Source: Betaproteobacteria bacterium
GTDB taxonomy: Bacteria; Pseudomonadota; Gammaproteobacteria; Burkholderiales; SG8-41
Direction of reading: 5' to 3'
Length of the DNA stretch: 64,000 bases
Assembly: GCA_016868035.1 (NCBI GenBank)
Contig: VGID01000003.1
Span: 1-64,000, forward strand
Below are positions 2,752 through 6,015 of the stretch, piece by piece. The translations under genes were made by a program, and so were the position numbers. The notes beneath the pieces were generated by a model that had not been told where the DNA came from, did no database searches, and saw only the letters and a list, made by a program, of their open reading frames with translations. Positions within the stretch are counted from its first letter, which is position 1; every line of letters begins with the position of its first letter.

Positions 2752-3354
2752 ATGCCCCGAGAATCCGGCCGCAACGATGCGCGTGTGCGCATCGCGCACC
2801 TTGCCGCGCGCCTGATGGCCGAGGACGGCATCGAGGACTATGCGCTCGCCAAGCGCAAGGCGGCGCGTCAGGCGGGGATGGCGGACACTCGTGAGCTGCC
2901 CACCAACGAAGAGATCGACGCTGCGTTGCGCCTTCACCGGCAGCTCTATCACGAGCAGGCCCACCGCAGCCGCCTGCGCGAGCTGCGCCTGGCCGCGGTA
3001 CGGGCCATGCGCGAGCTGGCGCAGTTCAATCCCTATCTCACGGGCTCGGTGCTGAACGGCAACGCGGGCAAGTATGCCGACGTCAAGCTCCAGCTTTTTA
3101 CCGACAACGTGAAGGCGGTGGAACTCTACTTCATCGACCGCCAGATCCCGTACCGGACGGCGCAGAGCCGGCTCTATGCGGGTGAAGAGCAACGCACCGT
3201 GCCGGTATACACGGTGGATGACCAGGGAACCGAGATCGAGATTATCGTGCTCTCGTCGCGGGAACTGCGTGTGCCCCTCAGGACTAGCCTCGAGGGCAAG
3301 GTGATCGAACGCGCCAAGCTGCAGGTGGTCGAACAACTGCTCGCGGACACCTGA
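2752..3354 (+). CDS. Conserved nucleotidyltransferase-like protein of unknown role
   Basis: A 200-residue protein that I do not recognise as a named enzyme. The N-terminal 100 residues are helical and rich in Arg and Ala. The middle reads LTGSVLNGNAGKYADVKL, which recalls the GS...D-x-D signature of minimal nucleotidyltransferases, but the second acidic residue is Lys (DVK), so catalysis of the usual kind is doubtful. The C-terminal half (about 125-195) looks like mixed alpha/beta. It follows mrcA by 7 bases and is probably co-transcribed. It ends 17 bases before the convergent hemB stop. Confidence 0.7.
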   Translation: MPRESGRNDARVRIAHLAARLMAEDGIEDYALAKRKAARQAGMADTRELPTNEEIDAALRLHRQLYHEQAHRSRLRELRLAAVRAMRELAQFNPYLTGSVLNGNAGKYADVKLQLFTDNVKAVELYFIDRQIPYRTAQSRLYAGEEQRTVPVYTVDDQGTEIEIIVLSSRELRVPLRTSLEGKVIERAKLQVVEQLLADT

Positions 3355-3371
3355 ACGCCGCTCGCGCGCGC

Positions 3372-4385
<1,014 letters not shown>

Positions 4386-4441
4386 CTATCCATTTGAAAA
4401 ACATAACATTTCTTCGCTAAGCGGCCAGGGAACTATCGCGC

Positions 4442-4449
4442 ATTATAAA
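4442..4449. promoter_or_regulatory. Overlapping divergent -10 elements (hemB and candidate sRNA)
   Basis: The sequence ATTATAAA contains TATAAT read on the minus strand (4447 to 4442), pointing at hemB, and TATAAA read on the plus strand (4444-4449), pointing at the hairpin string starting near 4457. The -35 boxes on both sides are weak. Because the two hexamers overlap, the two transcription units could compete. This is inferred from sequence only. Confidence 0.4.
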
Positions 4450-4456
4450 CGTCCTA

Positions 4457-4567
4457 TGGCGTAGACGATGTTTATCGTCTCCCGCTTCTCCTCCCTGAGC
4501 GGGCGCCTTAATTCCAAGTTAAGGCTTTTCGCCCCCGGTTTTACTCCCCTTTAACCGGGGGTTTTTT
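4457..4567 (+). ncRNA. Candidate small RNA with C-rich hairpin loops and intrinsic terminator
   Basis: Four perfect hairpins lie in series between the hemB start and the engB stop, in a gap with no protein gene. Hairpin 1 is 4463-4480 (7-bp stem, GTTT loop). Hairpin 2 is 4481-4503 (6-bp stem CCCGCT, loop TCTCCTCCCTG). Hairpin 3 is 4505-4525 (7-bp stem GCCTTAA). Hairpin 4 is 4532-4561 (9-bp stem CCCCCGGTT, loop with CTCCCC), followed by six T at 4562-4567, an intrinsic terminator on the plus strand. Both neighbouring genes are on the minus strand, so the terminator serves no known gene. The CUCCUCCC and CUCCCC loops could pair with Shine-Dalgarno sequences, the layout of known C-rich-loop regulators. 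A -10-like TATAAA is at 4444-4449. Confidence 0.55.
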
Positions 4568-4637
4568 ATTGCCTGCCGCGACCGTCGCTTGCATCGGGGG
4601 CAAGCCTGACGATCCGGCTCAGGAAATTCACCACCGC

Positions 4638-5228
4638 TCATTTCAGCCAGGCTCCGAGGATCTCCCGCGCCGCCGGCACGCCGACGCGCGTACGGCCCGA
4701 GAAGAGCTGCGCGGTGAGCGCCGGACCCTCACCCCGAAGCTCGCCCTCGCAGCGTGTCAGCGCAAGCAGAGCCTGTGCCGGCGGGAGCTTGTCCGCCTTG
4801 GTAAGCAGCACGTGGACGGGCTTGCCCGTCGGGGAGAACCATGCGATCAGCTGCCGGTCGAGGGGTGTCAGCAAACGGCGCGTGTCGCAGACCAGCACCA
4901 GGCCGCGCAAAGAGCGGCGGGTCTGGAGATAGGCACTGATGCGCGCGTCCCAGCGGCGGCGCTCGGCGCCCGGCCCAGCCGCGTAGCCGTACCCTGGCAG
5001 GTCGACGAGATAACGGTGAGCATCGAGGCGATAGAAATGAATACCACGGGTATGCCCGGGCGTCTTGCTGACCGAGGCCAGATTTTTCCGCTGCAAAATG
5101 GCGTTGACGGCGCTCGACTTGCCGGAGTTGGAGCGGCCGGCGAACGCGACTTCGGCGGCATTGTCGGGCGGCAAGTCGCCCGTATCGTGCACCGCCCGGT
5201 GAAACTCCGGTTGCTGGAAAAATGACAT
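4638..5228 (-). CDS. engB: Ribosome-biogenesis GTPase EngB/YihA
   Basis: Essential small GTPase thought to help assemble the 50S subunit. The 196 residues carry the G1 loop GRSNSGKSS (31-39), a G2 Thr in the HTRG stretch, G3 DLPGYGYA and G4 TKAD, in the order of the family. Its length matches EngB. It is divergent from the cytochrome c4 gene, a common betaproteobacterial arrangement, with a 96-base gap shared by both promoters. Confidence 0.95.
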   Translation of the reverse strand: MSFFQQPEFHRAVHDTGDLPPDNAAEVAFAGRSNSGKSSAVNAILQRKNLASVSKTPGHTRGIHFYRLDAHRYLVDLPGYGYAAGPGAERRRWDARISAYLQTRRSLRGLVLVCDTRRLLTPLDRQLIAWFSPTGKPVHVLLTKADKLPPAQALLALTRCEGELRGEGPALTAQLFSGRTRVGVPAAREILGAWLK

Positions 5229-5324
5229 AGGTTATTGTTATCGTGCCCGAAACTGGCGCGCGAGCAGGCGCTTACTATACAATACGCGCTCCGCGCGATG
5301 AGCCGCATACAATCAGGAGCCCGA

Positions 5325-5960
5325 ATGAAATTCCGCTGGTCCGTGCAGGTGATCGCCGGCATGCTCGCTGCCTCGAGCGCGTTTGCGCAGGCGCCCGCGA
5401 AAGGCGATCCAGCGAAGGGCGAGCGCATCGCCACCCAACTCTGTGCTGCCTGTCACGCTGCGGACGGCAACAGCCCCCAACCCGCCAACCCCGTGCTCGC
5501 TGGCCAGCACGCAGAGTACACGGTCAAGCAGCTGATGGACTTCAAGCCGCAGGGCGGCAAACCCGCGGAACGGGGCAACCCGATCATGGCGGGCATGGTT
5601 GCCGGTCTTACCGCGGAAGACATGCGTAACGTCGGCGCCTACTACGAGAACAAGAAGCCCGCTGCGCGCGCGGCGCGCGACGCGGAGCTGGTCAAGCTCG
5701 GGCAGGTGATTTATCGCGGCGGCAACCTGTCGAAGGGCATCACGGCATGTGCCGCCTGCCACGGGCCGAATGGCGCGGGCGTGCCCGCCATGTTTCCGCG
5801 CCTGGCCGGGCAGCACGCCGAATACGTGGCCGCACAGCTGAAAGCATTCCGCGCGGGCGAGCGCGCCAACGATCCCGGCCGCATGATGCGCATGATCGCC
5901 GGGAAGCTCTCGGACAAGGAGATCGCCGCGGTGGCCGACTTTATCGCGGGGCTGCGCTGA
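5325..5960 (+). CDS. Periplasmic diheme cytochrome c4
   Basis: Electron carrier feeding terminal oxidases. The 211-residue precursor has a signal peptide cut near Ala21-Gln22 (SSAFAQ) and two class I haem domains, each with CAACH: Cys40/Cys43/His44 and Cys142/Cys145/His146. Methionine ligands are probably in NPIMAGM and MMRMIAGK. The start at 5325 has AGGAG at 5315-5319; longer upstream frames lack a signal peptide. A TACAAT -10 lies at 5278-5283. An intrinsic terminator follows the stop. Confidence 0.93.
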   Translation: MKFRWSVQVIAGMLAASSAFAQAPAKGDPAKGERIATQLCAACHAADGNSPQPANPVLAGQHAEYTVKQLMDFKPQGGKPAERGNPIMAGMVAGLTAEDMRNVGAYYENKKPAARAARDAELVKLGQVIYRGGNLSKGITACAACHGPNGAGVPAMFPRLAGQHAEYVAAQLKAFRAGERANDPGRMMRMIAGKLSDKEIAAVADFIAGLR

Positions 5961-5992
5961 TCCGCGCATCCCGGTGCGAGTAACGCAGAGAG

Positions 5993-6015
5993 GGTGACGC
6001 AGGTCACCTTTTTTT
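5993..6015 (+). terminator. Intrinsic terminator after cytochrome c4
   Basis: A 6-bp stem, GGTGAC / GTCACC, with a 4-base loop, followed by seven T. It lies 33 bases after the cytochrome c4 stop codon. Confidence 0.8.

Follow-up and report, generated by a model that had tools for sequence, protein, structure and literature searches.

A small RNA gene between hemB and engB

The window, a stretch of 64,000 nucleotides from the start of contig VGID01000003.1 of a Betaproteobacteria bacterium (order Burkholderiales, assembly GCA_016868035.1), carries a small RNA (sRNA) gene on the plus strand in the gap between hemB and engB. Both flanking genes are on the minus strand, as the first-pass annotation had stated, and the features of the region are the following.

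3372–4382, minus strand: hemB, transcribed away from the sRNA
4429–4435, plus strand: GGAACTA, −35 element of a sigma-E type promoter (motif match 4429–4456)
4442–4447, minus strand: TATAAT, likely hemB −10, within the spacer of the sRNA promoter
4444–4449, plus strand: TATAAA, the −10 of the first-pass annotation, overlapping the likely hemB −10
4452–4456, plus strand: TCCTA, −10 element of the same sigma-E type promoter, 16 bases after the 7-base −35
4463–4568, plus strand: sRNA gene of the anti-hemB family (RF02837 match), 5′ end placed from promoter spacing
4463–4480, plus strand: hairpin 1, at the placed 5′ end and outside the Rfam model; 5 of 7 pairs changed on both sides
4481–4503, plus strand: hairpin 2, nearly invariant, with loop CUCCUCCC (DNA CTCCTCCC) at 4488–4495
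4505–4525, plus strand: hairpin 3; 4 of 7 pairs changed on both sides
4531–4567, plus strand: hairpin 4 and U run, an intrinsic terminator (stem 4531–4562, U run 4562–4567)
4544–4549, plus strand: terminator loop CUCCCC (CTCCCC in DNA), inside hairpin 4
4638–5228, minus strand: engB (yihA), convergent with the sRNA

With this 5′ end the RNA is ~106 nt long. Positions 4457–4571 of the plus strand fold into four hairpins at −45.7 kcal/mol (z −4.95) and none of 200 shuffled sequences was equally stable, so the string of hairpins with CUCCUCCC and CUCCCC loops and a terminator, first read from the letters, is real. Its conservation in relatives at the hemB–engB gap, on which that reading depended, was examined in an alignment (A2) of 43 of the 53 order loci described below, from which near copies and loci of the Burkholderia type had been excluded. 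Over 31 named pairs, 95.1% of cells are paired, and changes on both sides affect 18 pairs and 66 cells, where shuffles average 7.4 and 14.8; on each of five measures, all 500 shuffles stayed lower. Shifting the partner by one to three columns lowers pairing to 28–56%. The letters of hairpin 2 and its C-rich loop are almost unchanged across the alignment, which fits a pairing site and not a mere terminator.

Family identity

The first-pass annotation had treated the RNA as unannotated, but the gene belongs to a known Rfam family, RF02837, whose covariance model matches 4478–4569 over its full length (1–81 of 81) at 76.6 bits against a gathering score of 49.5. The first-pass proposal was right in that an sRNA is encoded on the plus strand, ends in a terminator of its own, has C-rich anti-Shine-Dalgarno loops and is conserved at this gap in relatives. 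Rfam calls the family anti-hemB or “Burkholderia RNA 7”, describes it as a Burkholderia RNA named after hemB, and omits hairpin 1 from the model. A model of our own (R1), built from the 43 A2 sequences, covers 4462–4569 at 121.6 bits, a score that is high by construction. Three other families scored under their cut-offs on the window: sX13 (RF02232, 24.8 bits, cut-off 50), alphaproteobacterial ar14 (RF02344, 27.2 bits, cut-off 58.8) and Betaproteobacteria toxic sRNA (RF02278, 19.8 bits, cut-off 50). The last of these, with ncS27, and S17 of B. pertussis are betaproteobacterial sRNAs that likewise have C-rich anti-Shine-Dalgarno regions; the RF02278 class has two hairpins and lies at other loci, unlike the four-hairpin RNA of the window.

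Extracts of two papers describe ncS04 of B. cenocepacia, alias anti-hemB, as a 105-nt RNA in the gene order ← → ← that co-purified with Hfq (PMC4603805; PMC5688073). Its level is flat in the seven tabulated conditions of one of them; SDS stress is named in the accessible text but is no column of the condition table (PMC5688073). Anti-hemB is listed for B. pseudomallei too, in an extract of PMC3521395, and the accessible part of a review gives hemB as a predicted target of B. cenocepacia Bc7, with RybB as homolog (PMC6321483). From their names and place, Bc7, “Burkholderia RNA 7” and ncS04 are probably one RNA. The window RNA resembles anti-hemB/ncS04 in sequence and structure (over the cut-off), in length (~105 nt), in its C-rich loops, and in lying in the hemB/engB gap in the same orientation. 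It differs in its promoter: the window copy, like most sampled copies outside Burkholderiaceae and Comamonadaceae, has a sigma-E type motif.

Distribution and neighboring genes

Among 300 genomes of the order, 232 match RF02837 at E ≤0.001 and 190 exceed the cut-off; the corresponding counts for 31 near relatives, source genome included, are 29 and 26, while three of 14 control genomes gave weak matches and none exceeded the cut-off. The 53 over-threshold order loci that were fetched have hemB in 47 cases, engB in 46, both in 40 and neither in none. Wherever hemB is present it lies upstream on the strand opposite to the sRNA (47 of 47), and engB lies downstream and opposite in 41 of its 46 loci. 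In the source genus, all 9 loci have hemB next to the RNA and 4 of the 9 have engB (one a partial match). Across the order, hemB accompanies the RNA as steadily as engB does.

Several loci depart from the simple arrangement. At L026, L048, L057 and L058, engB is upstream on the sRNA strand and hemB was not found, so that engB is turned yet adjacent; at L009 the RNA and engB end at the same place. Some genomes carry multiple copies, with six matches each in G250 and G267 and four in G297, and copies lie a few hundred bases or less apart at L115, L117, L120, L121 and L225 (Nitrosospira briensis). The source genome has a second C-rich sRNA-like place (L002, G000:C41:19441-19526, minus strand; RF02837 26.1 bits, R1 20.4 bits), where CCUCCUCCC precedes the first hairpin and the flanking genes, read by eye, are phaB-like and phaR-like. 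The hairpin 2 pattern also occurs in a MAG labelled Candidatus Sericytochromatia (L176; without an engB, hemB or polA match; promoter motif, defined below, 7/11) and in one labelled Klebsiella pneumoniae (L266; motif 10/11). Such odd labels likely reflect chance, mislabelling or mixed bins.

Across the class, R1 matched 88 of 369 genomes at E ≤0.001. The best 30 of these matches were fetched, of which 27 lie outside the order; we refer to them as gamma-side loci. Among these 27, engB is downstream and opposite in 16 and polA upstream on the same strand in 17; one or the other is found in 23, always in the order polA, sRNA, engB with engB opposite, and 14 exceed the RF02837 cut-off. Together with three beta loci, 25 of them make up alignment A3. 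The polA gene of the source genome sits on another contig (C20), so the window RNA is not downstream of polA.

A conserved sigma-E type promoter

The envelope-stress sigma factor RpoE is sigma-E, called AlgU or sigma-22 in Pseudomonas, and GGAACTT-N16/17-TCTNA has the form of a sigma-E/AlgU promoter. This motif recurs upstream of the RNA. We scored it out of 11 in the 70-base upstream stretch (66 bases in L025) and took expectations from dinucleotide shuffles. At least 9 was reached at 47 of the 53 order loci, the window’s included (2.03 expected), at least 10 at 34 (0.12 expected) and 11 at 12 (0.00 expected), counts to be read with the −10 form having been settled on this sample and the shuffles taking related loci as independent. 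Two further samples were drawn from named-genome loci picked by hairpin 2 alone (at least 120 stretches). A score of at least 9 was found at 43 of 78 loci in the first (3.04 expected; 78 of 80, L219 and L239 dropped) and at 22 of 39 in the second (1.37 expected; 39 of 40, L253 dropped). Gamma-side loci have it too, with 18 of 27 at 9 or more (0.84 expected) and 14 at 10 or more (0.06 expected).

In the first further sample, with lineages taken from the record names, the motif is unevenly spread. It occurs at 1 of 21 Comamonadaceae loci (0.85 expected), at 7 of 13 Burkholderiaceae loci (0.27 expected), at 5 of 9 loci labelled gamma (0.31 expected) and at 30 of 35 loci of the remaining lineages (1.61 expected). 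The Burkholderiaceae matches are due to GAAACTT with TATCA after it, perhaps a worn relic. In the best −35 of this sample, GAAC is absent from all 13 Burkholderiaceae and all 21 Comamonadaceae loci; the RNA family can therefore do without the motif. In an alignment of 23 of the 53 loci, hand-picked and mostly motif-bearing (A1), no columns before the transcript other than GAAC are invariant.

The pattern GGAACTN{16,18}TCNNA is not enriched in the source genome, where it occurs 51 times and its reversed control 65 times; a single copy therefore means little, and it is conservation that carries the sigma-E claim. Twelve of 17 inspected genome-wide matches sit in a dispersed repeat and are unlikely promoters. 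This repeat of the source genome, gtaagcagtgagcg ... cttaccgcttaccgctt, has many copies (e.g., L066, L069, L072, L077 and L087) laid out as gtaagcagtgagcg, ~30 bases and then cttaccg runs, and contains GGAACTT...GTCCAA. The source genome encodes rpoE (329.9 bits), followed by frames that by eye resemble rseA and rseB; the pattern searched for was not found upstream of rpoE in the fetched rpoE locus. Judged by its motif, the conserved promoter of the sRNA is of the sigma-E type, though Burkholderiaceae and Comamonadaceae have lost the motif or carry it in changed form.

The first-pass annotation had instead placed the −10 of the sRNA at TATAAA, overlapping the hemB −10. Across 17 loci of the source genome’s family, plus-strand TATAAW occurs in 3, ATTATA in 16 and GGAACT in all 17; the overlapping TATAAA is thus not conserved, and it probably belongs to the hemB −10 on the other strand. 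On the same counts, sigma-70 was rejected as the main promoter, and a sigma-70 scan of window positions 3000–6000 found no site. That the window gene makes its sRNA constitutively from a sigma-70 promoter at TATAAA, GGAACT being a relic or a chance match, is accordingly unlikely, although TATAAA is there and the GAAC element is gone from two families. In B. ambifaria L190, our stand-in for B. cenocepacia, a 105-nt transcript would start 6 bases after TATGAT, a spacing that fits a sigma-70 type promoter in Burkholderia and the flat expression of ncS04 in the extract of PMC5688073. With the likely hemB −10 located within the sRNA promoter spacer at 16 of the 17 loci of the source family, the two promoters may hinder each other, and in this family they may compete.

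Does the RNA act on hemB?

A link between the sRNA and haem synthesis, raised by the first-pass annotation, holds as far as position goes, with hemB divergent at 47 of 53 loci and the promoters overlapping in 16 of 17; pairing of the RNA with hemB does not exceed shuffles over 43 loci. Regulation of hemB, whether by antisense pairing to its mRNA or by interference between divergent promoters, would agree with these neighborhoods, including the 9 of 9 in the source genus, and with the naming of hemB as a predicted Bc7 target in the accessible part of PMC6321483. Pairing of the window's terminator loop with codons of hemB reaches −11.5 kcal/mol, a value equalled by 6% of 485 ORF starts; the hairpin 2 loop is ordinary in this respect, with 66% of starts as strong. 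Against conserved pairing stand the terminator-loop means over 43 loci: −10.16 kcal/mol with a locus’s own hemB, −10.61 with the hemB of other loci and −11.92 with shuffled hemB, on which ground conserved hemB pairing was rejected. With the 5′ ends as placed, the two transcripts do not overlap, and a cis-antisense test found neither overlap with hemB nor conserved complementarity in the 43 loci. Moreover, the RNA occurs without hemB in the fetched stretch at five full-length order loci (L026, L048, L054, L057 and L058; L025, cut off on the hemB side, was left out) and at all 27 gamma-side loci. We regard hemB regulation as improbable; judged by these data, anti-hemB is a name for where the gene lies.

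It is scarcely credible that the hairpins do no more than terminate transcription between engB and hemB, strongly or in both directions, and give no product of their own. The minus strand of the hairpin region does fold nearly as well (−42.6 kcal/mol), and 76 bases separate the engB stop from hairpin 4, but termination does not need a hairpin 2 and loop kept nearly letter for letter, a conserved plus-strand promoter motif is present, and B. cenocepacia makes a transcript of the family.

Relation to ErsA, sX13 and Spot 42

Extracts of published work place the gene of Pseudomonas ErsA in the polA–engB gap and describe a U-rich domain (PMC8575079), sigma-22 dependence and pairing, with Hfq, at the algC ribosome-binding site (PMC6321483). 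The window RNA shares with ErsA an engB-adjacent place with engB convergent, a 5′ hairpin, C-rich loops, a terminator like ErsA’s with its CUCCC loop, and, at the level of the motif, a sigma-E/sigma-22 type promoter (for ErsA, e.g., TGAACTT-N17-TCAGA). ErsA differs in its U-rich domain (extract of PMC8575079), in lacking the invariant CCGCUU..CCUCCCUGAGCGG hairpin and in having polA as upstream neighbor. The sX13 RNA of Xanthomonas, by the accessible text of PMC3771888, lies downstream of polA and acts through C-rich loops on 4G motifs, and is described as Hfq-independent; it resembles anti-hemB-type RNAs in the loops and, on the gamma side, in the polA neighbor, and differs in being independent of Hfq. 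The gamma-side copies lie in the gap that ErsA occupies in Pseudomonas, and their arrangement has the order and orientation of polA, spf (Spot 42, RF00021) and yihA (engB) in E. coli. Spot 42 is under sigma-70 and CRP control; it was matched by neither R1 nor R2, a further model, and no sigma-E type motif was found in its gap.

No model comparison with RF01719, R1 or R2 linked the window RNA directly to ErsA or Spot 42. RF01719 (“Pseudomon-1/ErsA”) has no match in window positions 4380–4640 at E up to 1, whereas it matches 4 of 4 scanned pseudomonad engB loci at 70.8–134 bits. Of 14 pseudomonad engB loci inspected, 9 carry the sigma-E type motif in the gap, and polA was found in 10. R1 gave no match at E <0.01 in 38 genomes of the G475 family, taken as pseudomonad because of its RsmY and RF01719 matches; one of 18 weak matches there (L139, 17.2 bits) lies in the polA–engB gap. 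R2 matched 9 of the 14 pseudomonad loci (E 8.5e-5 to 0.043), largely through the terminator, and we give this little weight.

A few loci score with more than one family. L111 matches RF02837 at 38.7 bits and RF01719 at 35.0 bits (E 0.0039, under the cut-off), and L103, L095 and L113 match RF01719 at 29.5–30.3 bits (E 0.054–0.085, under the cut-off) at the same place; L118 has RF02837 at 47.3 bits and sX13 at 37.9 bits (E 8.4e-4), the latter under its cut-off. The chance level of the scan that gave the best ErsA match (E 0.0039) can be gauged from a microRNA family, which it lists at E 0.016. Cross-matches to ar14 at 26.9–31.3 bits (L095, L097, L099, L100 and L120; window 27.2 bits) indicate that C-rich loops and a terminator alone can yield such scores. 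Part of the likeness to ErsA may thus be compositional, and common descent, which rests mainly on place and promoter, is not proven. Tentatively, and at somewhat less than an even chance, we propose that a single ancient sRNA gene under sigma-E control beside engB predates the split of beta- and gammaproteobacteria. Its descendants would be anti-hemB, the gamma-side copies, ErsA and perhaps sX13 and Spot 42; their sequences would have diverged while place, C-rich loops and mostly the switch were kept, and Burkholderiaceae and Comamonadaceae would have been rewired to another promoter.

Candidate targets

Target prediction from the loop, suggested by the first-pass annotation, gave no specific result. 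The pattern AGGGAGGAN{3,10}ATG has 21 sites in the source genome and 1 in the reversed control; the signal is unspecific, as other Shine-Dalgarno forms are favored too. By eye, 8 of the 21 AGGGAGGAN sites precede receptors of the tripartite tricarboxylate type, and a Pfam scan of the first 90 residues matched 7 of these 8 to TctC at E ≤0.001, 4 over the cut-off. The source genome (3.9 Mb) encodes at least 150 TctC-type solute receptors (PF03401). In a sample of 367 ORFs, the 19 TctC-type genes, labelled with 12 query proteins, favor other strong Shine-Dalgarno sequences (odds ratio 41 for AAGGAGG, 15 for AGGAGG), and AGGGAGG precedes none of the 19. Duplex energy with the loop averages −8.29 kcal/mol for TctC-type genes and −7.35 for the others, a gap slightly larger than those given by two scrambled loops (−7.59/−7.25 and −7.18/−6.80). 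TctC-type receptors were set aside as targets, the signal being not specific enough, and we make no target claim.

Proposed function

We consider it likely that the window gene encodes a trans-acting RF02837 sRNA of ~106 nt, read by RpoE from 4429–4456 and dependent on Hfq, which works as an ErsA-like anti-Shine-Dalgarno RNA; we infer its sigma-E dependence, pairing mode and targets. On release of sigma-E, RpoE would transcribe the gene from this promoter and the sRNA would accumulate, with its U tail predicted to bind Hfq. Its loops would expose CUCCUCCC and CUCCCC, which could pair with the G-rich Shine-Dalgarno sequences of a set of mRNAs and block their translation in the manner of ErsA. 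Under envelope stress, the sRNA would thus most likely repress translation of mRNAs with G-rich leaders, a reading to which we are led by the analogy with ErsA, the co-purification with Hfq in Burkholderia and the nearly invariant anti-Shine-Dalgarno loop.

RybB, MicA and ErsA form the sRNA arm of the gammaproteobacterial sigma-E response. In the accessible portions of the open-access literature searched, no betaproteobacterial counterpart of that arm is named and no report ties anti-hemB to sigma-E or ErsA; Bc7 was once likened to RybB, according to the available part of a review (PMC6321483). Our results suggest that RF02837 has a range wider than Burkholderia and a different regulator. Were the ancestral scenario true, promoter rewiring would explain why a stress role was overlooked in B. 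cenocepacia. If the proposed function is right, an orphan sRNA that exceeds its cut-off in 190 of 300 sampled genomes of the order can be assigned a regulator and a 5′ end, along with a likely way of acting and a counterpart that is well studied. Two families that lack the motif would then offer a clean example of an sRNA whose body was kept while its control changed.
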